Virus record (IMG/VR): IMGVR_UViG_3300025110_000137
Span: 1-23,328 of that record
Reading direction: 5' to 3' (one strand)
From: a virus
Length of the DNA stretch: 23,328 nucleotides
Shown here: positions 3,001 to 21,400 of the stretch, piece by piece
How the letters are laid out: every line of letters begins with the position of its first letter
Position numbering within the stretch: position 1 is the stretch's first letter
Program-made: the position numbers and the translations under genes
Notes under the pieces: generated by a model
Told to the model about the DNA's origin: nothing
What the model saw: only the letters and a program-made list of their open reading frames with translations
Database searches by the model: none

Positions 3001-3970
3001 CTAATGTACTAGCCATGTCTACTGCACCATCAATGTCAACAGCGTCAAGATTAGCTGTACCGTCTACATCTAGATCTGTACCAACGTACAACTTTTTAGC
3101 TATACTTGCCCCACCTTCAGTTCGTAAAGCTCCTGTATCACCTGTAGCATCACTTGAATCTGTAGTATCTGTTATGTCAACTACACCTGCAACTGTAAGG
3201 GTTGATGCCATGTCTACTGCACCATCAATGTCTACAACATCTAAGTTTGTAGTACCATCAACGTCTATGGCTCCTGATATGTCTAATGAAGCTGCGGCTA
3301 TCTCACCACTAACATCTACTGCACCATTTATATCTATAGTTGTAGCGTTTATCTCAATCTCTGTGTCAGATACTAAGTCAAGTACACCATCTGCAGATTG
3401 ATGTATGTATGTACCACTGTCACCAAATTGTAATTGTCTAGTGCTGTTTAACAATATACCTGTGTCAGCAACGTGTGTTAAGGTAACATCATTATCAACA
3501 CCCATACCTAGTATAGCTGCATCACTATCTAATTTTAAATCATTACTAACCAGTACGGCTGTAGAAGCATTAATGTCTACTGTAGCTTCACCATCTATCC
3601 TAAGAACACCATTAGAGCTTTGTTGTATAAAACTAGCAGTATCACCAAACTGTATTTTTTCTGTAGATGCTACAAGTATGTCATCAGAAAACTCAAAGTA
3701 ATCTTCATCTTCCATCCATTTTAATACACCATCATTTGTTTCACCATCAAAAGTGATAGTAATATCTGTTCCTGTACTGCCTGTACCAAAGGTAAGAGTA
3801 TGACCTAATAACTTCGTTATTGGTCCACCCTCTGCAGCAGTACCGTCATGTGTATGTCCTGAACTTGCAGCAAAAGCAGCTAGAAGCTGATCAAACTCAT
3901 CGTTAGTATCTGCTGCAACGATGGTATCTCCATCTGAATAGTCTGATTGTCTTGTGTACGTAGCACCCAT
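29..3970 (-). CDS. Tail fibre with C-terminal S74 chaperone
   Basis: A 1313-residue fibre probably used for host recognition. Residues 1-55 form a conserved-looking N-terminus with an Asn-Glu-Phe-Asp-Gln-Leu segment and a Gly-His-Thr-His-Asp-Gly motif, seen in marine phage fibres and probably the virion anchor. Residues 60-1220 are Asp/Ser/Thr/Gly-rich beta-strand repeats, including two copies of a module with ASLDISG and DIDGAVD, and two copies of one with ADAGIDIDNFNIDGTTI. Residues 1224-1313 match the intramolecular chaperone of endosialidases (peptidase S74), starting with SDERLKSN. In that family the chaperone cuts itself off just before this Ser once the trimer has folded, and a coiled coil ends it, as in LIEAIKELKAEIEVLK here. 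The start overlaps the previous stop as TAATG. The 3' third is richer in GC than the middle. Confidence 0.9.
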   Translation of the reverse strand: MGATYTRQSDYSDGDTIVAADTNDEFDQLLAAFAASSGHTHDGTAAEGGPITKLLGHTLTFGTGSTGTDITITFDGETNDGVLKWMEDEDYFEFSDDILVASTEKIQFGDTASFIQQSSNGVLRIDGEATVDINASTAVLVSNDLKLDSDAAILGMGVDNDVTLTHVADTGILLNSTRQLQFGDSGTYIHQSADGVLDLVSDTEIEINATTIDINGAVDVSGEIAAASLDISGAIDVDGTTNLDVVDIDGAVDMASTLTVAGVVDITDTTDSSDATGDTGALRTEGGASIAKKLYVGTDLDVDGTANLDAVDIDGAVDMASTLATGGLYTAGAGITSTAAANTFGATSFNDADITNVGGIALDTITNDGTDITLDSSGDIILDAAGNNITIKSAGTSILDIANNSTDVELTVSTADKNFAIKGTDGSSAITALDIDMALAGKATFSGDVVVTGDLTITGDDLVMGTNTSGHILVADGTNFNPIAVGDLSEISTVANDDVFLAVDTSGGGLKKITRSAVVSGLATSSGISNIVEDTSPQLGANLDTNSHNILIDDAHFIADENGNEQIIFQTTSSAVNQFDVTNAATGSGPTISSTGSDTNINLNLTPKGSGVVMIDGNVGIDSGTIDLKNGGSVSNIKFYCESSNAHYTALQSAAHSAYSGNVTLTLPASTDTIVGRATTDTFTNKTFGGHTSFGDYNITNVGDIALDSISADGTDINVAVSDNSATALTIKQGSDAYLIIDTANSSESVSIGTGISGTAITIGHGTSEVTFGDNVTVTGDFTVNGTTTTVATTNLTVEDPLVKYGQGYTGTAYDQGFIITRGDGSSSNTANRGFIWDESADEFATIAANTEAGTTAGNVTINDYVPLHVGAITADDNSTFSGEIAAASLDISGNVDVDGTTNLDVVDIDGAVDFASTTAHAGNATFADSAKVQLGAGADLQIFYDGSNAFINNTVAGALSIKSDDINLMSSASETMATFVENGAVTLYHDNAAKLATASGGVTVTGTFEPSGKITADAGIDIDNFNIDGTTIALSSGHMTLDAAGQVILDSADAGSTGFADSGTTYGNIYASSGSMVLKSTQSDKDMLFQGNDGGSQITALTLDMSDAGAATFNGKITADAGIDIDNFNIDGTTIGLSSGNLTLDVAGEINIDAGGGNINILDDGTSIAYFGNSSSNFVIQSTVSDKDLIFKGNDGGSTITALTLDMSAAGAATFNNDVTAFSDERLKSNITTIPDALSKVSEMRGVHYVRDATGKDSSGVIAQELQKIAPELVLTADDEMGTLSVNYGNITGYLIEAIKELKAEIEVLKGK

Positions 3971-5718
3971 TATCTTCTAGCCCCTAATTGAAATTCCATT
4001 TGAAATCCTTTTAATGAATATGGACCTGTTGAATTAGATCCATCTTCTACTCTTAATGCTACAGCAAACCCAGAACCTTCTACTGATTTTCTTACAATAG
4101 GTTGTGATGGACCACCGTAAGTAGCATTACCATAAACTGATACTGCACCGTATGTACCTGCAACGTCTGTTGTGTCTAGTGGATACGCTGCTGGTCTTGA
4201 TGAATCTTTTGCTTCGTAATCATACCTTACAAACATGTCTGCGTCAATAGTTGATTCAGGTGCGTAGTTAATATTTACCCTTTGCATATGTTTTCTTATA
4301 CCCGGATCTCCAAAGGTTAAGTCTGGGCTACGGTACTTAGCGTCTACTAGTGTACCATTAAAAGTGTTTCCTTGATCTTGCCTGTATACATATCCATCAA
4401 AACTTCCATGTATAGGTATAACATTGCCTAATTCTACAACACTGTCTGTACAAGCAGGTTTAATACCTTTTATCTGTGAAAATTCAAAAGACTGTCCTCT
4501 TAATACACATATTACACCTGTAGTAGTTTTTTCTGCACCAACAGCTTTAGAAAAAAATATTCTGTATTGTGTTTTGTCTGGAATAACTAATGAAGTAAAG
4601 TTTCCAGAATCACTTAATTGTTCTTTAAATAAAGGCTGTACAGGAGAACTAATTGTACCAAGTTCAACGTCACCAATTCTTGCAGTACCAGCAATAGTAC
4701 GTAACCCGTCTGGTCCTAAGAATATTAAGTCACCAGCAAATTCCTGTATTGTATCACCATTTACACACCCAATGTTTCTTGTAACGGGTACAATAGCAAA
4801 GTTAGAACTTGTTGTGCCTGACAGTTTAAATATTCTATTTTCACAGAAGATAAATAAATCTTCACGGAAAACTTTTAGTCCTACGATTGTGTCATCTACT
4901 TTAATACTACCTGCACCACTAGCTGTAGCAAAGTTATCCTCATCAAATGGAACACTAAATACTAACTCTTGTGGTGTACTAGACATTCCTGAATAGAACA
5001 TATGGCTCTTAAATGCAGCTACGTGTTTAGCACCTGTAACTGCTGTAGTTACTTCTCCACCACCTGCAGATGATACATCTGTTGCAGATAGGGATGTGTT
5101 AAATATAGTTGGTGCATTTGCCTGATCTACTACAATAAATTTATCGTTGCCATCAAAGTTAAATCTTTCAAACTTATACTTTGCAGCACTTGTTCTACCT
5201 GTATCTCTTTCTGTCCAACTTTCAGATATAACAACATTAGCTTCGTGGACTGCTGCTGTAGTGCTACTTGTAGCTCTTGTTACCCCAGTAAAAGTTGTAG
5301 CTGTTACTCCTGTATATGTAAATATTTCTGAGTCTATATACAAAGTACCACTAGAACTAAAAGATGTAGTGCTTTTTGCATTGATAGTTCCTGACCCTGA
5401 CATTGTAGCACTAGAAGTTATTTTTTGTGACAGTGTTGTACTAGCAGAACTAAATATCTTTTCTCCTCTAGCAGCAACTATGTAGTCGTGAAATAATGCT
5501 GTCATTAACATTGGCTCACTACTAAGTGCTGTTTCAGGAACTTGTTGTATTATATAAGGTTTGTATCCATTAATTCGTCTGTAGCCACCCTCAACATCTG
5601 GCTCAAAGTTAGTTAACTCTAGTGCCTGTCCGGGTTCCATAATAAATGTAGACTTGTTTAAAACTAAACCGCCTTCACAGTTAAACGAAAACGGTTGGAC
5701 TTGTGATTGATCAGGCAT
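3970..5718 (-). CDS. Tail nozzle-like protein (T7 gp12 / P22 gp10 role)
   Basis: A 582-residue structural protein. Position after the adaptor, size, and beta-rich sequence with repeated short blades (for example VGLKVFREDLFIFCENRIFK and DLIFLGPDGLRTIAG) fit a beta-propeller nozzle or tail tubular protein B. The N-terminus (FNCEGGLVLNKS, then ELTNFEPDVEGGYRRINGY) has the form common to this group in marine podophages. Residues about 108-164 hold an inserted domain closely related to one in the preceding adaptor. The gene starts two bases after the adaptor stop, and an AGG of the adaptor C-terminal codons can act as its ribosome site. It ends with a TAATG overlap onto the fibre gene. Exact homology to T7 gp12 or P22 gp10 cannot be shown by eye. 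Confidence 0.75.
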   Translation of the reverse strand: MPDQSQVQPFSFNCEGGLVLNKSTFIMEPGQALELTNFEPDVEGGYRRINGYKPYIIQQVPETALSSEPMLMTALFHDYIVAARGEKIFSSASTTLSQKITSSATMSGSGTINAKSTTSFSSSGTLYIDSEIFTYTGVTATTFTGVTRATSSTTAAVHEANVVISESWTERDTGRTSAAKYKFERFNFDGNDKFIVVDQANAPTIFNTSLSATDVSSAGGGEVTTAVTGAKHVAAFKSHMFYSGMSSTPQELVFSVPFDEDNFATASGAGSIKVDDTIVGLKVFREDLFIFCENRIFKLSGTTSSNFAIVPVTRNIGCVNGDTIQEFAGDLIFLGPDGLRTIAGTARIGDVELGTISSPVQPLFKEQLSDSGNFTSLVIPDKTQYRIFFSKAVGAEKTTTGVICVLRGQSFEFSQIKGIKPACTDSVVELGNVIPIHGSFDGYVYRQDQGNTFNGTLVDAKYRSPDLTFGDPGIRKHMQRVNINYAPESTIDADMFVRYDYEAKDSSRPAAYPLDTTDVAGTYGAVSVYGNATYGGPSQPIVRKSVEGSGFAVALRVEDGSNSTGPYSLKGFQMEFQLGARR

Positions 5719-14415: not shown

Positions 14416-14620
14416 TGGCTATTACACTATCCCTTAGTCTTTGTATATTACGTAACATATGAACAGCACCTTGCGCTCTATGTATTGTAATCATATCGTC
14501 TGTTTGTTCCATCAAACGATGTTGTTGTTTAACAAGCTCTTCTAAATAACTATTGAAGTGGGTCCACTGCTTGGGGTTGTTGACCAGCCCCTTGAGCTTG
14601 CTGAATATTTCCTTGTCCAT
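14408..14620 (-). CDS. Small helical protein overlapping the portal 3' end
   Basis: A 70-residue protein in a different frame from the portal, overlapping its last 71 bases and the first 8 bases of the giant gene. It looks fully helical: KEIFSKLKGLVNNPKQWTHF, then YLEELVKQQHRLMEQTDD and the HRAQGAVHMLRNIQRLRD end. Similar short proteins with an Arg-Ala/Leu-Gln-Gly segment follow the portal gene in marine podophages, which supports it as real. A GTG two codons upstream (14626) is an alternative start, nearer to an AAGGA ribosome site. Function is unknown, but a portal or packaging accessory role fits the position. Confidence 0.7.
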   Translation of the reverse strand: MDKEIFSKLKGLVNNPKQWTHFNSYLEELVKQQHRLMEQTDDMITIHRAQGAVHMLRNIQRLRDSVIANG

Positions 14621-16691
14621 TTCCACTAAATCCTTGTTCCTGTGGTAATGGTACTTGGCCTGTGCCTATTGTACCACCACCTGCACCTGATGGGTCCATT
14701 GGGTTTGCACCTGCTGGTGCTGCACCTTGTTCTGGAGTTGGAGCAGGTTGTTGGAACTGCTTCATTAACTCAGCTTGTATAGCTGCTTCATCCATATTGT
14801 TTGTTACTTTATCAGGGTCAAGGTCAAGAGACTTAGCAATCTCTCTAATAATATATTGAAACTTAGCAAAGGGTGCAAGTGCTGGGCTGGAAGATACCTG
14901 CATAAATTGCATAAGTCTTTGGCTACGTACTTCATTTGCCATTAGGCTTTCTGTACCACGTGCCTTTACTTCTAAGTCACCACGTATAGCTGGATCAAAG
15001 TCAAACTGCATGTTAAATCTAAACAGTCCTTCACCCAGTGGTCGTAGTAAGTAGTCATCTACATTCTTAATTACATTTTTAATACCACCTGCAGCAGCAC
15101 CCATTAACATAGAAATACCTGATGCAGTTCTACCTACACCAGATACACCTGTCTGTCCATGAGCAAATGATGGCATCCCTGTACTTTCATCTGCGAGTAC
15201 ACGTGCCTTATCAAATAGCTGCAAGTTTTCTCCTGCTACATTTGGAAACTTTGTACCAAACACAGCCTGTCCGGGTGCGCCACCCTGTCGTCTAAATACT
15301 TTGCCGGGATATACGGATAAGTCTTGGCCCGGAACTAAGTTTGTTTCATCTACTTCTATAAGTAAGTTACCACTCAGTACTGCATTATCTACAGCCATAC
15401 GCATAAACCCATTCATAAGTGTTTGGGTATCGTCCATGTTTTCTGCAATACCTATACCAAAGAAAGAGTATGGGTTTAGTTCATAGGGCGCAGCCATGTA
15501 AGGAATGGTAGCAGGTTTAAATGGATTAAGTACCATACGCAAAAGTTTACCATTACAAATCCATATATTTGCCTGTAGTTCGTCAACTCCGTCAAGCTCT
15601 TCAGGTATTTCAATACCCTGCTCCACCAACATAGCATAATCACACATACCCCAATACTCAAGGACTTCATAGCGTTCTACTCCATATTCAGGTGCATAGT
15701 CAGATAAATCGTCTTCCCATGATTCTTTTGTATAATTTGTGCCTTGCATAATTGCATCATCAATTACTGAAGCTCTAAAGTAAGGACGTTTCTTTAATCC
15801 AATTAACTGTGAACGAGACATCTTATGACGTTCAATTACATACTGTGCTTCATCTATGTTGTTTGCATCTGGATCTGGATAAAAGTTCCAAACAGATACA
15901 TGAGATACTTGTGGTACAGTCTTAATTCTTGGTGAGTATTCACCTTCTTCATCCCAGTTAGGGTATTCTTTATCTACAGCAAATGGACCTTTCATTATTC
16001 CTGTGCCAAATAATGCCATCTCAAATGCTGTACTACGTAAATGTTTATTAGCACTAGACTCTTCTAGTTGGTCTTGTATTTTCTTTTGCATTGCCTTTGC
16101 AGCAATCATAGCTGGACTAAAAGTTACAGCCGTAGGAGTTTTACCCACACCTGCTCTTACACCCTCAATATCGTCTAATTTATCTCCTAATGGTCCTAAA
16201 CTTTCTGATAATGTTCGTGCTGTAGCTCCTGCAGGTACATCTTTACCATCTCCCATAAATCCATAAGGACTTACAGGTTCATCTAATTCTGAGTTTCTAA
16301 GTTGCTCTGGTTCTTTTGGATCAAAGTGTACATCACCTACAACTCCTTCAGGTAATACTGTTGGTTCTACAGTAAGCGGAAATTTATTACTTGCAAATAA
16401 TACATCTACAATTTGTCCGTAGGCTGCAAGTGTTTTTGTTTTTGTTACTTTGATAAAAACTCTAGACTTTTCTGCTTCAGTAAACTGAACATCAGATCCA
16501 TAGATACCTCTATAGTTACGATAGGATCTTAACCATCTATCTTCATCTTGCTGTCTGTAGTCATCAGCACGTTTATATCTATCCATGACAAAGGGTATAA
16601 TACCACTAATATTAGCATCATCTACTCCTGAGTCTTCAGAGTCTTCTAATACTACTTGTTCGTCATCTGTAAATTCTTGATCTTCTGCCAT
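14550..16691 (-). CDS. Portal protein
   Basis: A 713-residue protein, close in length to P22-type portals and longer than T7-type ones. It forms the dodecameric head vertex for DNA entry and tail joining. Seen in order: an acidic N-terminus; a helix with DRYKRADDYRQQDEDRWLRS and NYRGIYG; the AAYGQIVDVLFASNKFPLTV segment; SHVSVWNFYPDPDANNIDEA, typical of portal wing domains; and NPFKPATIPYMAAPYELNPY with SFFGIGIAENMDD, the clip/stem part. Residues 640-713 are Gln/Pro/Gly-rich and disordered-looking. It follows the large terminase by 11 bases with an AAAGG ribosome site. Its 3' end overlaps the next gene. Confidence 0.88.
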   Translation of the reverse strand: MAEDQEFTDDEQVVLEDSEDSGVDDANISGIIPFVMDRYKRADDYRQQDEDRWLRSYRNYRGIYGSDVQFTEAEKSRVFIKVTKTKTLAAYGQIVDVLFASNKFPLTVEPTVLPEGVVGDVHFDPKEPEQLRNSELDEPVSPYGFMGDGKDVPAGATARTLSESLGPLGDKLDDIEGVRAGVGKTPTAVTFSPAMIAAKAMQKKIQDQLEESSANKHLRSTAFEMALFGTGIMKGPFAVDKEYPNWDEEGEYSPRIKTVPQVSHVSVWNFYPDPDANNIDEAQYVIERHKMSRSQLIGLKKRPYFRASVIDDAIMQGTNYTKESWEDDLSDYAPEYGVERYEVLEYWGMCDYAMLVEQGIEIPEELDGVDELQANIWICNGKLLRMVLNPFKPATIPYMAAPYELNPYSFFGIGIAENMDDTQTLMNGFMRMAVDNAVLSGNLLIEVDETNLVPGQDLSVYPGKVFRRQGGAPGQAVFGTKFPNVAGENLQLFDKARVLADESTGMPSFAHGQTGVSGVGRTASGISMLMGAAAGGIKNVIKNVDDYLLRPLGEGLFRFNMQFDFDPAIRGDLEVKARGTESLMANEVRSQRLMQFMQVSSSPALAPFAKFQYIIREIAKSLDLDPDKVTNNMDEAAIQAELMKQFQQPAPTPEQGAAPAGANPMDPSGAGGGTIGTGQVPLPQEQGFSGNGQGNIQQAQGAGQQPQAVDPLQ

Positions 16692-16702
16692 TTATAATAC
16701 CT

Positions 16703-18109
16703 TTAATATCCAAAAGTTTTGTCTGCCATTGGCATACTAGATTGGGGTCTTCCGTGTGGATCATAGTCAAATATACTAAACCTTGGTCTTGACATAATAC
16801 CATATCTTAGTGCATCATACAAGTGGTCTTCACTATGAGTATCAATATCTTCTGGATTCTTTTTATCCAATGGTATAGCTGGTAATTGTGAAACTATATT
16901 TGTACAGTTATTAAAGAAAACAAGCCTTGGTTCTTCTGTAAACTCATCAACTTGTAAGCGTCTATGTATTTCGTTTTTACCTGCTACCCTTGATCCTTTA
17001 CTTCTATCTGAAGGTCTCCAACGACAACCTCTACTTACCATCTGCTCTGCAAGACTAGGCCCAGTATCCCCTCTTTTGTGCCAAAGAGAACTATCCAGAA
17101 CCCCATATCTAATAGTACCATCACCTGCTTCTAACTCCAGTATTTTATCTGCTAAATCTGTAGCTAGTACTTTACCTACATACAGTTCTCTGTAAACAAT
17201 TAACTGTTCATTAGGGGCGCAAGCAAACCATACTACTCCAGATTTACTTCCATATCCATAGTCACAGGCTCTAAATCTTACCCAGTTACTTGGTATATCA
17301 AATGGTTCAATAACATGTAAGTCTCTATTAAACTCTGTAAAGGCTGCGCCTTCTTTAATATCCCAATCACCATCTAGTAGCTGTCGTCTTTGCTGTTCTG
17401 GTAGTGACAAAAGCATTGCTTCATAGTCACCTGCTTCTGCTAAGTATGGATTATCTTTTAGTCGTGCTGGTATAAATCTACGTTTAAATAAAGATATACC
17501 TGCTTTTTCGTGTCCTGCTGGATACTTTAATGCTTCTCCAGTTTCTATGTCTGTAGCTTCAAAAGCCTTGTTTGGTATCGCAGGGTCAATAAACATTTTT
17601 TTAACCCAGTGATGTCCTCTACCTCCGGGGTTTGTAGTTGCCCTCATAAAGATAGGTAAGTCGGGTGCAGTAGACCGTAGACGAGACCGCATGTAATCCC
17701 ATGCATATGGTGTGGCCCATTGAGTTAATTCGTCAAAGCCTATCCAGCTAAATGCCAGACCCTGATAACGCAAGACATCGTCTTCTCTATCAAGATACGA
17801 CATCCACAACCTTGCGCCAGATGGCGCGGTCCACTGCATCTTTCTTTCAGACCATTTGATTCCGGGCCATATCTTGGGGTACATCTCTTGTGATTTGAAT
17901 ATAAGTTCACGTAACTCTTCCGTTGTGTGTCGTAGTAGTAGACCACTAAACGCAGGATGCCCCATATACCTCAGAGGGTCTGCAAGCATTGCATAGGATT
18001 TACCACCACCAGCACTGCCACCATATAATACTTCTCGTTCACTTGCCGCTAGAAAGTCTGTTTGTGGACCATCGTTTGGTTTGAAGATTACATTGTTATC
18101 TTCTTCCAT
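16703..18109 (-). CDS. terL: Terminase large subunit
   Basis: ATP-driven packaging motor and nuclease. With the start used here the protein is 468 residues. The frame stays open upstream to an ATG at 18274 (523 residues), but that would overlap the preceding gene by 128 bases and adds only a Lys/Arg-rich tail, so I prefer the ATG at 18109. Walker A is GGSAGGGKS, Walker B is FSWIGFDE, and the coupling motif is MRATTNPGG. The RNase H-like nuclease domain has its acidic residues in RACDYG, GVLDSSLW and HLYDALRYG, so all key residues are present. The QTDFLAASEREVLYGG lead into Walker A is typical of marine phage terminases. The order small subunit, helix-turn-helix protein, large subunit, portal supports the call. 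Confidence 0.93.
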   Translation of the reverse strand: MEEDNNVIFKPNDGPQTDFLAASEREVLYGGSAGGGKSYAMLADPLRYMGHPAFSGLLLRHTTEELRELIFKSQEMYPKIWPGIKWSERKMQWTAPSGARLWMSYLDREDDVLRYQGLAFSWIGFDELTQWATPYAWDYMRSRLRSTAPDLPIFMRATTNPGGRGHHWVKKMFIDPAIPNKAFEATDIETGEALKYPAGHEKAGISLFKRRFIPARLKDNPYLAEAGDYEAMLLSLPEQQRRQLLDGDWDIKEGAAFTEFNRDLHVIEPFDIPSNWVRFRACDYGYGSKSGVVWFACAPNEQLIVYRELYVGKVLATDLADKILELEAGDGTIRYGVLDSSLWHKRGDTGPSLAEQMVSRGCRWRPSDRSKGSRVAGKNEIHRRLQVDEFTEEPRLVFFNNCTNIVSQLPAIPLDKKNPEDIDTHSEDHLYDALRYGIMSRPRFSIFDYDPHGRPQSSMPMADKTFGY

Positions 18110-18146
18110 ACGTTTAATAGTAGTATTTCTTGTTACTTCTACTATT

Positions 18147-18557
18147 TTAGATGGCTGCTGCTTCTTTGGCTCCGATACGACTTTCTTCAATTTCTTTCGC
18201 CTTGGCGATTGCCTTTTCCGCATAGTCTGCCCATTGGCGTAAGCTTCTAACTTTGTGTTTTCTACTTCTTTCATTATCCAACCGTTTTCTTAAACCTACG
18301 TGAGATATAGATCTACCAGTATTTGTTGTCAACCAGTTCGCTACTTCACGATATGAGTACTGTTTTAAATACTTTTTTGCTTTGTCTAGTTTGTCTAATT
18401 GGTCGGGTATGGGTATTAATATTTTATTATCGTTTGTGTCTAGCTCATAACCAAAAGGAATTGTTCTAGATATTCTAGGTACTTTTACCCATTCATTGTC
18501 TTCTTGTAGATCTATAGGTTGTGGTAGCTTCCATTTACCTAAACTTCTATTCGTCAT
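18147..18557 (-). CDS. Helix-turn-helix protein between terminase genes
   Basis: A 136-residue protein found, from memory, between the terminase subunit genes of many marine phages. The N-terminal part has LPQPIDLQEDNEWVKVPRIS and TIPFGYELDTND, an apparently conserved beta segment. Residues 60-100 carry a resolvase-like helix-turn-helix (YLKQYSYREVANWLTTNTGR, then SISHVGLRKRL), followed by a basic helix and an Ala/Glu-rich C-terminus. It overlaps the small terminase gene by 11 bases. It probably binds DNA, perhaps the packaging site or a promoter, but its role is not known. Confidence 0.75.
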   Translation of the reverse strand: MTNRSLGKWKLPQPIDLQEDNEWVKVPRISRTIPFGYELDTNDNKILIPIPDQLDKLDKAKKYLKQYSYREVANWLTTNTGRSISHVGLRKRLDNERSRKHKVRSLRQWADYAEKAIAKAKEIEESRIGAKEAAAI

Positions 18558-18918
18558 CTTCTACAACTTTAGGTGGCATTAACATAACTCCACCCTTTGC
18601 TTCTACTTGTAATTTTTCTGTTTTTACTAAACCCGTACGATCTAGTAGTTCTTTTGCCGCAATCATTTTATCTTTAATACCTAGTTCTGTAGGATCATAC
18701 AGACCACCAACCATAGCCATTGCAGCTTTTGGTGCGTTACGTGCCATAAAACTTTGTGTAGAATCTAGTATTTCTTCTTTTAAACTATTAACAACGTCTG
18801 TTGTGCTATATGTATCTGAATACCCAGCTAGTTTTTTTGCAGTTAAAACATCACCACCTGCTTCATCAAACAAAACAGCTAAAAACTTTTGTTGTTTTTC
18901 AGTTAACTCACGTGCCAT
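18547..18918 (-). CDS. terS: Terminase small subunit
   Basis: A 123-residue protein that recognises phage DNA and loads the large subunit. The N-terminal LTEKQQKFLAVLFDEAGGD followed by TAKKLAGYSDTYST is the usual helix-turn-helix start of small terminases. A helical oligomerisation region follows (SLKEEILDSTQSFMARN, then KMIAAKELLDRTGLVK), and the tail is short and acidic. The length is normal for the family. It starts through a TAATG overlap with the small basic gene before it and overlaps the next gene by 11 bases. Confidence 0.85.
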   Translation of the reverse strand: MARELTEKQQKFLAVLFDEAGGDVLTAKKLAGYSDTYSTTDVVNSLKEEILDSTQSFMARNAPKAAMAMVGGLYDPTELGIKDKMIAAKELLDRTGLVKTEKLQVEAKGGVMLMPPKVVEDDE

Positions 18919-19526: not shown

Positions 19527-20045
19527 TTATTCTCCTGCCATTTCTAATGCTGTTTCTAATGTCTCATTGTTTCTGCGTGACCATCCTTTACCAAAGGTAG
19601 AAAAAGTAGATAGTCCTTCGTAAAACTTTTGTCGTGCTTGATGCATATTTACAATAATATCATGGGGTTTATGTTTAGCTACATCTCTGAGCGTGTTAGG
19701 GCCAATACCACCATCAACAGTAGAGCCAACGATAAGCTGTAACGCTTTTGCTGCCCTGCCCATGCCACTATTAACGCCCCAATCAAAAACAGACCAATCC
19801 ACTCCACTAGGTAAATCATCACATTTTCCTCTATCCCAATAGTTAGTTTTATATATTGGAGATACTTCTGTTTTTGTTAAAGCTCTCATCTCAGCTTCAG
19901 TAGCATTACGTTTGATGTACTTTTCATATACAGCTTTTGTAACGCCTAAGTTTGTCATACCACCCGGATCGTCAGGATGATTTACAAAACCACCTTCGTG
20001 ATGTAAAAGCATTGATAAACATTTAGAAAAGTTTTCTGCACTCAT
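19527..20045 (-). CDS. Endolysin, GH108 N-acetylmuramidase
   Basis: A 172-residue lysozyme that cuts the peptidoglycan glycan chain at lysis. Residues 12-36 hold the family signature LLHHEGGFVNHPDDPGG, in which Glu17 of HEGG is the expected catalytic acid, then NLGVTKAVYEKY. The middle has NYWDRGKCDDLPSGVDWSVF and DWGVNSG. The C-terminal half matches the small peptidoglycan-binding domain usually fused to GH108 (KALQLIVGSTVDGGIGPNTL). The length is normal. No signal peptide is seen, so export depends on the holin. It overlaps the holin gene by an ATGA. Confidence 0.92.
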   Translation of the reverse strand: MSAENFSKCLSMLLHHEGGFVNHPDDPGGMTNLGVTKAVYEKYIKRNATEAEMRALTKTEVSPIYKTNYWDRGKCDDLPSGVDWSVFDWGVNSGMGRAAKALQLIVGSTVDGGIGPNTLRDVAKHKPHDIIVNMHQARQKFYEGLSTFSTFGKGWSRRNNETLETALEMAGE

Positions 20046-20440
20046 TTCTTAGCAATGCCTTTGCTCTTTTCATAGCTACGTAAACCGCCCAATCCTAGCA
20101 TACCCATAAGAACAGTCATAAGACTACCCATATCAAATGCAGGTAGTGGTGGTAATGTAGCTCCAAACATTGTAGCAAAGAATAAAATACAAGGCTGTAA
20201 AATAAAGTGGTATAGTAAAGCAATTCCACAAATCCAACCAACAAAAGGTCTCCATCCACCAATAAATAAGGAACCAGACTTTGCCTCTTCCTGATTAACA
20301 GCAATCTGAGACATAGCTAGTTCTTGAGCATGGCGTTCTGCCATAGTACTTATCTCGTGAGCTAAAGCGTTTTTTTGATCTTTGTCTTCTATGAACTTGT
20401 CAAGAAGTCCTGAAACAGGAGATATAAGTTGAGCTAACAT
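20042..20440 (-). CDS. Holin, GTA-type three-helix family
   Basis: A 132-residue inner-membrane protein that opens the membrane for the muramidase. A helical, charged N-terminus (residues 1-55) precedes the family core FIGGWRPFVGWICGIALLYH (about 59-78). This runs into a second hydrophobic segment ending near 92 and a third at 104-120 (MGSLMTVLMGMLGLGGLRSY), with a Lys-rich tail. It matches the 3TM holins of gene-transfer-agent release. It starts through TAATG from the Lys/Met/Gly protein and ends in an ATGA overlap with the endolysin. Confidence 0.88.
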   Translation of the reverse strand: MLAQLISPVSGLLDKFIEDKDQKNALAHEISTMAERHAQELAMSQIAVNQEEAKSGSLFIGGWRPFVGWICGIALLYHFILQPCILFFATMFGATLPPLPAFDMGSLMTVLMGMLGLGGLRSYEKSKGIAKK

Positions 20441-20691
20441 TATTTTTTCTTCTTAGCCATGCCACCGTACATCATCTTTGCTGTAGGTTTTTTCTTAGCC
20501 ATACCGCCACCCATCATTTTCTTTCCATAGGAACCAGCTTTGCCGTGATCTTTTTTGGGCATTCCTCCACCCATCATTTTTTTCTTTGCCATACCGCCAG
20601 CTTTCATGTAGCCCATTTTATTGCGTACAGCAGCAGGTAACTTTTTAAGTCCTTTTTGATTAGCAGAAGCTTTCTTCTTCATTCCCGGCAT
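20440..20691 (-). CDS. Lys/Met/Gly-rich repeat protein
   Basis: An 83-residue, very basic protein built from imperfect repeats of Gly-Gly-Met-Ala-Lys-Lys-Lys and Met-Met-Gly-Gly-Gly-Met, ending MMYGGMAKKKK. Only the N-terminus (LPAAVRNKMGYMKAGG) looks less repetitive. Function is unknown. Binding to nucleic acid or membrane is possible from charge. It overlaps the DUF1127 gene by 13 bases (its ATG at 20691, that stop at 20679) and overlaps the holin start as TAATG. Neighbouring small proteins share the Gly-Gly-Met and Lys-tail features. Confidence 0.65.
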   Translation of the reverse strand: MPGMKKKASANQKGLKKLPAAVRNKMGYMKAGGMAKKKMMGGGMPKKDHGKAGSYGKKMMGGGMAKKKPTAKMMYGGMAKKKK

Positions 20692-20825
20692 ATTCTTCCC
20701 CTTTCAATATCATAACGAGAAACACCAATATCTTTGAGTTCTCTATCTGTCATATTTCTTAACTTCCAGTAATTTGCTCTTTGTTCTTGCAACTTAACTG
20801 CTTTATTCCATAATCTTTTAAACAT
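20679..20825 (-). CDS. DUF1127 (YjiS-like) small protein
   Basis: A 48-residue gene. The protein begins MFKRLWNKAVKLQEQRANYW and continues KLRNMTDRELKDIGVSRYDI, ending ERGRICRE. The block Met-Thr-Asp-Arg-Glu-Leu-Lys-Asp-Ile-Gly-Val-Ser-Arg-x-Asp-Ile is the DUF1127 signature. In Alphaproteobacteria these short Arg-rich proteins are known to bind RNA and affect mRNA and sRNA turnover. An AAAGGAGAAAGAT ribosome site precedes the ATG. It is the first gene after a sigma70-like promoter, so it would be made early and strongly in that transcript. The role in the phage is inferred to be regulatory. Confidence 0.88.
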   Translation of the reverse strand: MFKRLWNKAVKLQEQRANYWKLRNMTDRELKDIGVSRYDIERGRICRE

Positions 20826-20844
20826 ATCTTTCTCCTTTTATGTT

Positions 20845-20865
20845 TAAGTCATAAACACTGACTTA
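20845..20865 (-). promoter_or_regulatory. Dyad in the leader of the DUF1127 operon
   Basis: TAAGTCA and TGACTTA form a perfect 7-bp inverted repeat with a 7-base spacer, about 20 bases upstream of the DUF1127 start and just downstream of the predicted transcription start. It could be an operator or an mRNA hairpin near the ribosome site. Confidence 0.55.
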
Positions 20866-20890
20866 TATAATAGGAGTTATATCATATCTA

Positions 20891-20919
20891 GTTATAACAT
20901 AAAACAGCTAAGTTTGCAA
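20891..20919 (-). promoter_or_regulatory. Sigma70-like promoter for DUF1127 and late genes
   Basis: On the minus strand a -35 TTGCAA (20914-20919) is separated by exactly 17 bases from a -10 TATAAC (20891-20896). The -10 and the two bases after it (TATAACTA) match those of the capsid promoter at 8507. A second TATAAC follows at 20876-20881. It lies in the 109-base gap before the DUF1127 gene, in a window where most gaps are only a few bases. Confidence 0.7.
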
Positions 20920-20934
20920 GCCCGTTATGCATTT

Positions 20935-21177
20935 TTACTTCTTTTTGCAATCACAAAAACCGCACCATCCAAATAGGTGTAGTACAATCCCTGCAACAAT
21001 GAGTCCAGCAAGTCCTGAACTTCCTAGATTTTCAACTAGGTCAATAATATTTCCAACAGCGTTACCAAGAAAAATTAAGTTGCTTGGTCCTACAAGTACT
21101 GATGCTACTATTGATAGTGTAATAAGAGCAATGCCCATTTCTGTTATACTTGCGATTGACGATTTCATTTTATCCAT
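20935..21177 (-). CDS. Two-helix small membrane protein
   Basis: An 80-residue protein with hydrophobic segments at about 15-38 (GIALITLSIVASVLVG) and 54-71 (SGLAGLIVAGIVLHLFGW) and a C-terminal Cys/Lys tail (CGFCDCKKK). It resembles small membrane proteins common in marine phages. Size and topology would fit a holin or antiholin, but a better holin candidate exists at 20042-20440. An AAAGGATAGACA ribosome site supports the start. It is the last gene before the promoter region, so it may end the upstream transcript. Confidence 0.6.
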   Translation of the reverse strand: MDKMKSSIASITEMGIALITLSIVASVLVGPSNLIFLGNAVGNIIDLVENLGSSGLAGLIVAGIVLHLFGWCGFCDCKKK

Positions 21178-21193
21178 TGTCTATCCTTTCTAA

Positions 21194-21400
21194 TTAAGTA
21201 TCTATTTTGTCTTTCACATCCCAGTACACACACTTTTTAGCACGTGCAATATGACTAGGAAACTTTTGTCTTAAATAGGGTAATCCTATATCTTCCATTC
21301 CTTGATAACATGCAGCTTCCGTTTTAAATATTGGTCCACCGTATGTTGCACAATCTGTAGTTACATACATAGAACACATGAGTACTATTGGGGTCCACAT
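21194..21400 (-). CDS. Small Cys-containing exported or membrane peptide
   Basis: A 68-residue protein starting with a short hydrophobic segment (MWTPIVLMCSMYVTT) and carrying Cys at 9, 17, 31 and 57. The remainder (YGGPIFKTEAACYQG, then LPYLRQKFP) is soluble-looking. A periplasmic domain with disulfides is possible, but the hydrophobic start is short for a signal peptide. No function is known. The ATG overlaps the preceding stop as TAATG within the AAGAAAAAATAATG junction. Confidence 0.6.
   Translation of the reverse strand: MWTPIVLMCSMYVTTDCATYGGPIFKTEAACYQGMEDIGLPYLRQKFPSHIARAKKCVYWDVKDKIDT

Follow-up and report, generated by a model that had tools for sequence, protein, structure and literature searches.

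This locus raises the question of why a phage keeps a gene for a small DUF1127 protein in front of its packaging genes, and of how that gene is expressed. The window, i.e. the whole stretch of DNA analysed, is a 23,328-base IMG/VR virus fragment with all major genes on the minus strand. It matches HMO-2011, CRP-1 and CRP-345 over the coat, portal and terminase genes, and 26% of it matches HMO-2011 DNA at 75%. These matches identify the window as part of the genome of an HMO-2011-type phage, a type reported to dominate in the ocean and to occur widely there (PMC9038755).

The DUF1127 gene and its neighbourhood

In transcription order, the window comprises accessory genes (23278-20935), a 109-nt gap, DUF1127, an 83-aa protein, a holin, an endolysin, two small genes, TerS, a 136-aa gene, TerL, the portal, further structural genes and a 1313-aa fibre-like protein (Table 1). 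A preliminary description of this DNA had presented DUF1127 as the first gene of an operon. The gene does head the packaging operon, but it is not the first of its strand run because same-strand genes lie directly upstream.

Table 1. Positions of the features identified in the window
Feature	Position	Strand	Basis and details
Operator-like element GCATAACGGGCTTGC	20916..20930	minus	single copy in window; blind scans; fixed distance to P2
Promoter P1	20891..20919	minus	TTGCAA 20919-20914, 17 nt, TATAAC 20896-20891; by sequence and conservation
Promoter P2, -10 box TATAAC, TGA-extended	20876..20881	minus	47 nt from operator motif ATAACGGG; predicted +1 about 20869
Leader RNA hairpin	20832..20876	minus	5' arm CUCCU 20876-20872 (anti-SD), inner hairpin 20864-20846, 3' arm AGGAG 20836-20832 (SD); folds, permutation test
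DUF1127 protein ORF, 48 aa	20825 to 20679	minus	ATG start; 8 R and 5 K; calculated pI 10.1
83-aa Lys/Gly/Met repeat protein	20440..20691	minus	overlaps DUF1127 end by 13 nt
GTA-type 3-TM holin	20042..20440	minus	PF11351 E 2.9e-19; phrog_3427 holin
GH108 endolysin	19527..20045	minus	PF05838 E 1.9e-30
Terminase small subunit (TerS)	18547..18918	minus	phrog_2538 E 8.6e-4; 77-79% identical to HMO-2011 and CRP-1 proteins
Terminase large subunit (TerL)	16703..18274	minus	phrog_979 E 9.6e-62; 83% identical to HMO-2011/CRP-1
Portal protein	14550..16691	minus	megablast to annotated portal of HMO-2011 and CRP-1

The translated ORF, MFKRLWNKAVKLQEQRANYWKLRNMTDRELKDIGVSRYDIERGRICRE, was compared with the Pfam DUF1127 profile PF06568 and scored 33.5 bits (gathering cut-off 23.3, E 3.6e-8); on the plus strand its frame contains stops. 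A genome-wide profile search scored it at 32.4 bits and found it to be the sole copy in the record. The 48-residue DUF1127 gene of the preliminary description was thus confirmed by profile, while the "complete" signature claimed for it was so in part: the alignment covers the whole core, at profile positions 12-37 of 37, and leaves the first 11 positions unmatched. The ORF also matches phrog_26566, of unknown function (E 1.9e-6), and is preceded by a strong SD, AAAGGAG, 7-13 nt 5' of its start. Purifying selection acts on the gene (pooled pN/pS 0.28 for 11 distinct close relatives). With 17% arginine (8/48) the protein fits the Arg-rich criterion of the family, which averages about 14% (PMC12501420). 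An AF2 single-sequence model (pLDDT 78) places helices at residues 3-23, 27-32 and 37-42, i.e. the phage protein is predicted to consist of one long and two short helices. The NCBIfam search returned nothing but a sub-threshold infA match, a PDB sequence search with 24 phage DUF1127 proteins gave no match, and no defence system was called by PADLOC.

For the 83-aa protein that follows, no family was found in Pfam or PHROG profile searches. It shares Gly-Gly-Met-Lys motifs with several unrelated-looking minus-strand proteins of the window: MMGGGMAKKK-like repeats in the 83-aa protein itself (20691-20440), KGGMV..KK close to the C-terminal end of a 115-aa and a 194-aa protein (21747-21400 and 22345-21761) and similar forms in a 1569-aa protein (14415-9706).

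By tblastn, DUF1127 was detected in 37 phage records (RCA roseophages, cobaviruses, Sinorhizobium phages and Agrobacterium phages), whose named hosts are all alphaproteobacteria; the IMG/VR protein search returned 68 relatives. Among bacteria, 44 of 115 alphaproteobacterial genomes carried at least one copy. Profile searches found exactly one DUF1127 in each of the 11 cultured RCA phages of HMO-2011 type, upstream of the terminase in all 11, and none in HMO-2011 (SAR116 host), HTVC033P (Pelagibacter host), phiM6 (Sinorhizobium) or ctYwJ313. Absence from all related phages, which the preliminary description had named as counter-evidence, was therefore not what we observed: every cultured RCA-roseobacter member carries the gene. 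In CRP-13 (1501-1665) DUF1127 is unannotated in the GenBank record, and its profile match, promoter and hairpin are all present. HMO-2011, which has no DUF1127, carries other accessory genes upstream of the terminase (3358-4440), including an annotated methanesulfonate monooxygenase.

Operator and promoters upstream of DUF1127

A sigma70-like promoter had been proposed directly upstream of the gene. It was not listed by a generic sigma70 scan, and a generic terminator scan of the region found no terminators. Because promoter-like sites in the region occurred at chance level (10 found, 11.7 expected), the proposed promoter could not be trusted alone. Yet the operator, P1 and P2 proved conserved across very divergent phages, which upholds the proposal. 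Aligning the upstream regions revealed a block far more conserved than its surroundings, with the layout CATAACGGG-n-TTGCA, a spacer of 17-18 nt and TATAAC, followed by an inverted repeat that has the SD at its end. The operator consensus is GCATAACGGG(GT/TA)TGC and is partly palindromic, reading GCATA-n5-TATGC in the other of two phage classes. P1 belongs to one class, within which it is as conserved as P2, and is missing from most second-class leaders. P2 has no recognisable -35, and in the window its -10 box overlaps the 5' arm of the hairpin.

These elements were searched for blindly in IMG/VR DNA. The first scan used the upstream motif alone, as the pattern ATAACGGGGTTGCA-N17..19-TATAAC, and gave at least 119 matches; 119 of the 119 parsed precede a DUF1127-like ORF. 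DUF1127 was called by a strict regular expression in 81 of them and by Pfam for the remaining distinct sequences. Together with two from the second scan, 32 unique sequences were missed by the regular expression, of which 31 match PF06568, the remaining one being most likely an ORF cut by the contig end. All 116 first-class contexts also contain another TATAAC-like box, 46 or 47 nt away from where ATAACGGG begins. The second scan used only the 14-mer operator CATAACGGGTATGC and gave 120 matches. TATAAY was present at 46-48 nt in 43 of these, all with HMO-type packaging genes downstream and with a DUF1127 called by regular expression (41) or included in the Pfam-tested set (2). The other 77, with neither box nor DUF1127 nor packaging genes, look like chance matches.

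Among 15 complete phage genomes, the pattern CGGGNWTNC-N31..37-TATAAY occurred once in 9 of the 11 with DUF1127, directly upstream of that gene, and never in the 4 without it; the reversed control pattern gave 0. The leaders of CRP-207, CRP-3, CRP-212, CRP-738 and CRP-235 have no P1 and keep P2 at 47-49 nt, which is weaker evidence because the position of the box helped to choose the motif. In P1-less leaders (CRP-212, CRP-3 and the loci L282, L288 and L306), the stretch separating the operator from the P2 -10 box often contains a further palindrome (CACCTAATTAGGTG; AGGTACTACTACCT), which may be the site of a second regulator. A host origin of the operator-promoter was considered and rejected: 0 of 385 alphaproteobacterial genomes contain the pattern, a count in which nearer hosts are perhaps under-sampled and weaker variants fall outside the pattern.

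Finally, the gene content around 177 loci with this cassette was determined. Packaging and portal genes were found on the same strand downstream (TerS in 170, TerL in 151, portal in 116) and never upstream. In the six loci where packaging genes are missing altogether, the contig continues downstream for no more than 1.6 kb; HMO-type packaging genes thus lie 3' of the cassette, on the same strand, in essentially every contig with room, and likewise in the cultured RCA phages. Of the two gene sets that DUF1127 had been said to precede, packaging therefore holds throughout the group and lysis does not: that lysis genes are always 3' of DUF1127 was rejected, the endolysin being upstream at 21 loci and downstream at 35. 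In the close group of the window the lysis genes do come after DUF1127; the holin, suggested as a landmark for a check on relatives, is downstream at 24 loci and upstream at 0.

The leader hairpin and the putative nested promoter

The leader RNA upstream of the gene was folded for 107 non-redundant leaders. All were more stable than their shuffles (every z < -1, mean -3.6), the mean pairing probability of the SD was 0.965, and the SD lay inside the stem in about 95%. The bacterial control, 28 automatically chosen DUF1127 leaders, gave a mean z of -0.6 and an SD pairing of 0.42. The paired arms differ from phage to phage (ACTACTCC/GGAGTAGT, ACTATCTCC/GGAGATAG, ACTATCC/GGATAGT, AGTCTCCAGTT/AACTGGAGAC), and neither the length nor the sequence of the inner hairpin and loop is constant, the anti-SD/SD pairing alone persisting. 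A 5' half folded with its own 3' half reached -14.2 kcal/mol, against -9.2 with the 3' half of another phage. In 20,000 arm-swap permutations none was as good as the real pairing (43 leaders below 80% identity; 22 below 70%; 15 below 65%). This is strong evidence, from which relatedness is not fully removed, that the pairing of the leader RNA is conserved despite sequence change. A DNA-level operator dyad was rejected as the cause of the hairpin, because arm spacing and sequence vary widely while the pairing with the SD is kept. The Rfam scan of window positions 20600-21200 gave no family match.

The start of the P2 transcript was assumed to lie 7 nt 3' of the -10 box. On average, the nucleotides pairing with the SD are at or upstream of this predicted start in 152 of 155 leaders (about 98%), and most of them sit between the P2 -10 box and +1. 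Read-through RNA should therefore be closed, and late RNA open. For the full leader, the predicted accessibility of the SD is 0.04; for RNA that starts at P2 it is 0.75 (0.00 against 1.00 in the window; 0.19 against 0.72 in P1-less leaders). The model has exceptions: the P2 transcript stays more than half closed in 22 of 118 leaders, and among P1-less leaders 23 of 33 open by more than 0.3, about ten changing little. In CRP-235, CRP-738 and one further locus, L039, there is a single -10 box and the 5' arm lies entirely before it; the hairpin can then arise only in RNA that enters from further upstream.

The alignments and predicted folds thus show a cassette with fixed spacing and kept base pairing, in which the anti-SD lies between the P2 -10 box and the expected start; part of this conservation is common descent. 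We propose, with a probability of about 0.6, that DUF1127 belongs to a fixed cassette of operator, P2 and SD-burying hairpin that heads the packaging and structural operon, closed in read-through RNA and open in late RNA from P2. The hairpin would bury the SD, and often also the AUG, of the DUF1127 mRNA. RNA arriving from the upstream early or accessory genes, or made from P1, would hold the whole hairpin and leave DUF1127 untranslated. Late in infection, a hypothetical activator bound to the operator motif at about -53 would turn P2 on, and the P2 RNA, starting inside the hairpin and devoid of the anti-SD arm, would be translated. Late transcripts, with their start inside the hairpin, would then probably be the only source of DUF1127 protein. 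In the window, successive reading frames overlap from DUF1127 to the endolysin (after the first overlap, given in Table 1, 1 nt for 83-aa protein/holin and 4 nt for holin/endolysin), and closing DUF1127 could therefore also damp the lysis genes by coupling. As a group-wide feature, coupling of DUF1127 to the next gene was rejected, an overlap or a gap of at most 10 nt being found in only 46 of 101 cases.

The same cassette was met in another phage type. L029 and L030 carry a ribonucleotide reductase module, and HMO-type packaging genes were not found in these contigs. Ahead of their DUF1127, which is 71% identical, the same operator recurs, P2 keeps its position at 47 and a hairpin is present; the gene closes a run of plus-strand genes, beyond which the genes are convergent. 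The cassette therefore seems, in this one lineage, to have moved as a unit, serving DUF1127 itself. The view of the cassette as a mark of the late operon only is weakened by these contigs, where no packaging genes follow.

P1 RNA would be closed, and the simple switch model leaves the conservation of P1 unexplained. In phages of the P1 class, the -35 hexamer of P1 shares nucleotides with the operator (in the window, 20919-20914 against 20930-20916), and a single bound protein could therefore both block P1 and activate P2. We hold only tentatively the extended reading of a portable cassette, in which the operator-bound protein shuts P1 and activates P2 15 nt downstream, the choice of promoter acting as a translation switch for DUF1127 and, by coupling or polarity, for the late operon. 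A rather unlikely alternative takes the RNA from P1 or from read-through as the working mRNA and the hairpin as the site of an RNA regulator: most simply the DUF1127 protein, repressing its own leader, or else a host or phage factor that opens the hairpin. The conservation of P1 within its class would fit, as would RNA binding by the DUF1127 protein CcaF1 (PMC10253847, PMC12501420) and the hairpin accompanying DUF1127 into the lineage of L029, where the gene is seemingly alone. However, an inner hairpin and loop so variable, with only the anti-SD/SD pairing kept, fit occlusion better than a specific protein site, and the P1-less class has, read-through aside, no promoter upstream of the 5' arm. 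That the hairpin is mainly a 5'-terminal stem-loop guarding the long late mRNA from decay, as in ompA, with incidental burial of the SD, is very improbable: the stems are stable and P1 RNA would begin just upstream of them, but a stabiliser should spare the SD that about 95% of leaders enclose, P2 RNA would have no stem, and in CRP-235, CRP-738 and L039 the 5' arm precedes the only promoter.

Possible roles of the protein and known systems

Under the nested-promoter reading, the small, basic and predicted helical DUF1127 protein would probably tune a host regulator or RNA late in infection. Among characterised relatives, RNA is bound by CcaF1 of Rhodobacter, and the sensor kinase PhoR by E. 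coli YjiS and the proteins of Agrobacterium (PMC10253847, PMC12501420). PhoR binding is as well documented a DUF1127 function as the RNA role. The preliminary description had given the protein a possible role in retuning host RNA turnover or in protecting the late transcript. We consider this possible, if doubtful: CcaF1 affects sRNA maturation and mRNA stability (PMC10253847, PMC12501420), and the window protein is Arg/Lys rich and encoded at the head of a late operon, but Salmonella YjiS showed no RNA binding (PMC11707872) and CcaF1 also complements a PhoR-dependent phosphate phenotype (PMC12501420). Binding to host PhoR or another sensor kinase, altering phosphate uptake during infection, appears unlikely. 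Agrobacterium and E. coli DUF1127 proteins do bind PhoR and damp the Pho regulon, with working cross-species complementation (PMC12501420), and cobavirus CRP-5 has its copy flanked by MazG and ribonucleotide reductase and close to PhoH. However, the known DUF1127-PhoR contact lowers uptake, with no obvious gain for a phage in a low-phosphate sea.

The main papers on the HMO-2011 group and RCA phages that the survey covered mention neither a promoter nor a DUF gene, and in the open-access literature naming DUF1127, which defines the scope of our survey, a phage DUF1127 is in no title or topic. The strongly conserved promoter-hairpin-DUF1127 cassette, with its T4-like nested logic, is apparently unreported for this abundant marine phage group. 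Its single-copy motif and hairpin mark the start of the packaging operon and could provide a handle on the timing of late expression in metatranscriptomes. With the cassette, a timing device of T4 type also becomes open to testing in a phage unrelated to T4; in addition, the cassette links the much discussed, poorly understood DUF1127 family (RNA or protein binder?) to infection in cultured pairs of CRP phages and RCA strains.

CcaF1 of Rhodobacter, the SDPs of Agrobacterium and YjiS of E. coli and Salmonella share the Pfam domain, the arginine richness and the size of about 50 aa with the window protein. The latter differs in being phage-borne and in its leader hairpin, absent from most of the 28 bacterial leaders; no sRNA cluster was noticed downstream of the phage gene. 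Sinorhizobium duf1127_1 is likewise controlled through its mRNA leader, but by uORF-dependent transcription attenuation (PMC12218461), whereas the phage leader has no terminator-like site and a stem that covers the SD. Cobaviruses (SIO1, CRP-4/5, P12053L) and Emdodecavirus phiM12 also carry DUF1127 in phages of alphaproteobacteria. In CRP-5 (4974-5171) the gene is part of an operon for nucleotide metabolism, overlaps the adjacent genes and has no leader of this kind, which is a different use of the same family.

The closest parallel in design is provided by genes e, soc, 49 and I-TevI of T4, whose late promoter is nested in an RBS-sequestering hairpin, read-through RNA being closed and late RNA open (PMC3014915, PMC2988022). 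As in these genes, and here by prediction, the SD and/or AUG is buried in read-through RNA, the RNA of the nested promoter does not contain the 5' strand of the stem, and the gene belongs to the late phase. In contrast, the gene is DUF1127, the cassette, with its constant operator spacing, is shared by an entire phage group, and it is known here from sequence. Its box is a sigma70-like extended -10, TATAAC/TATAAT, with an operator near -53, and since it is not the gp55 late box TATAAATA of T4, the cassette falls outside the T4 late-promoter class and would be, at most, a functional analogue of the T4 nested late promoter.
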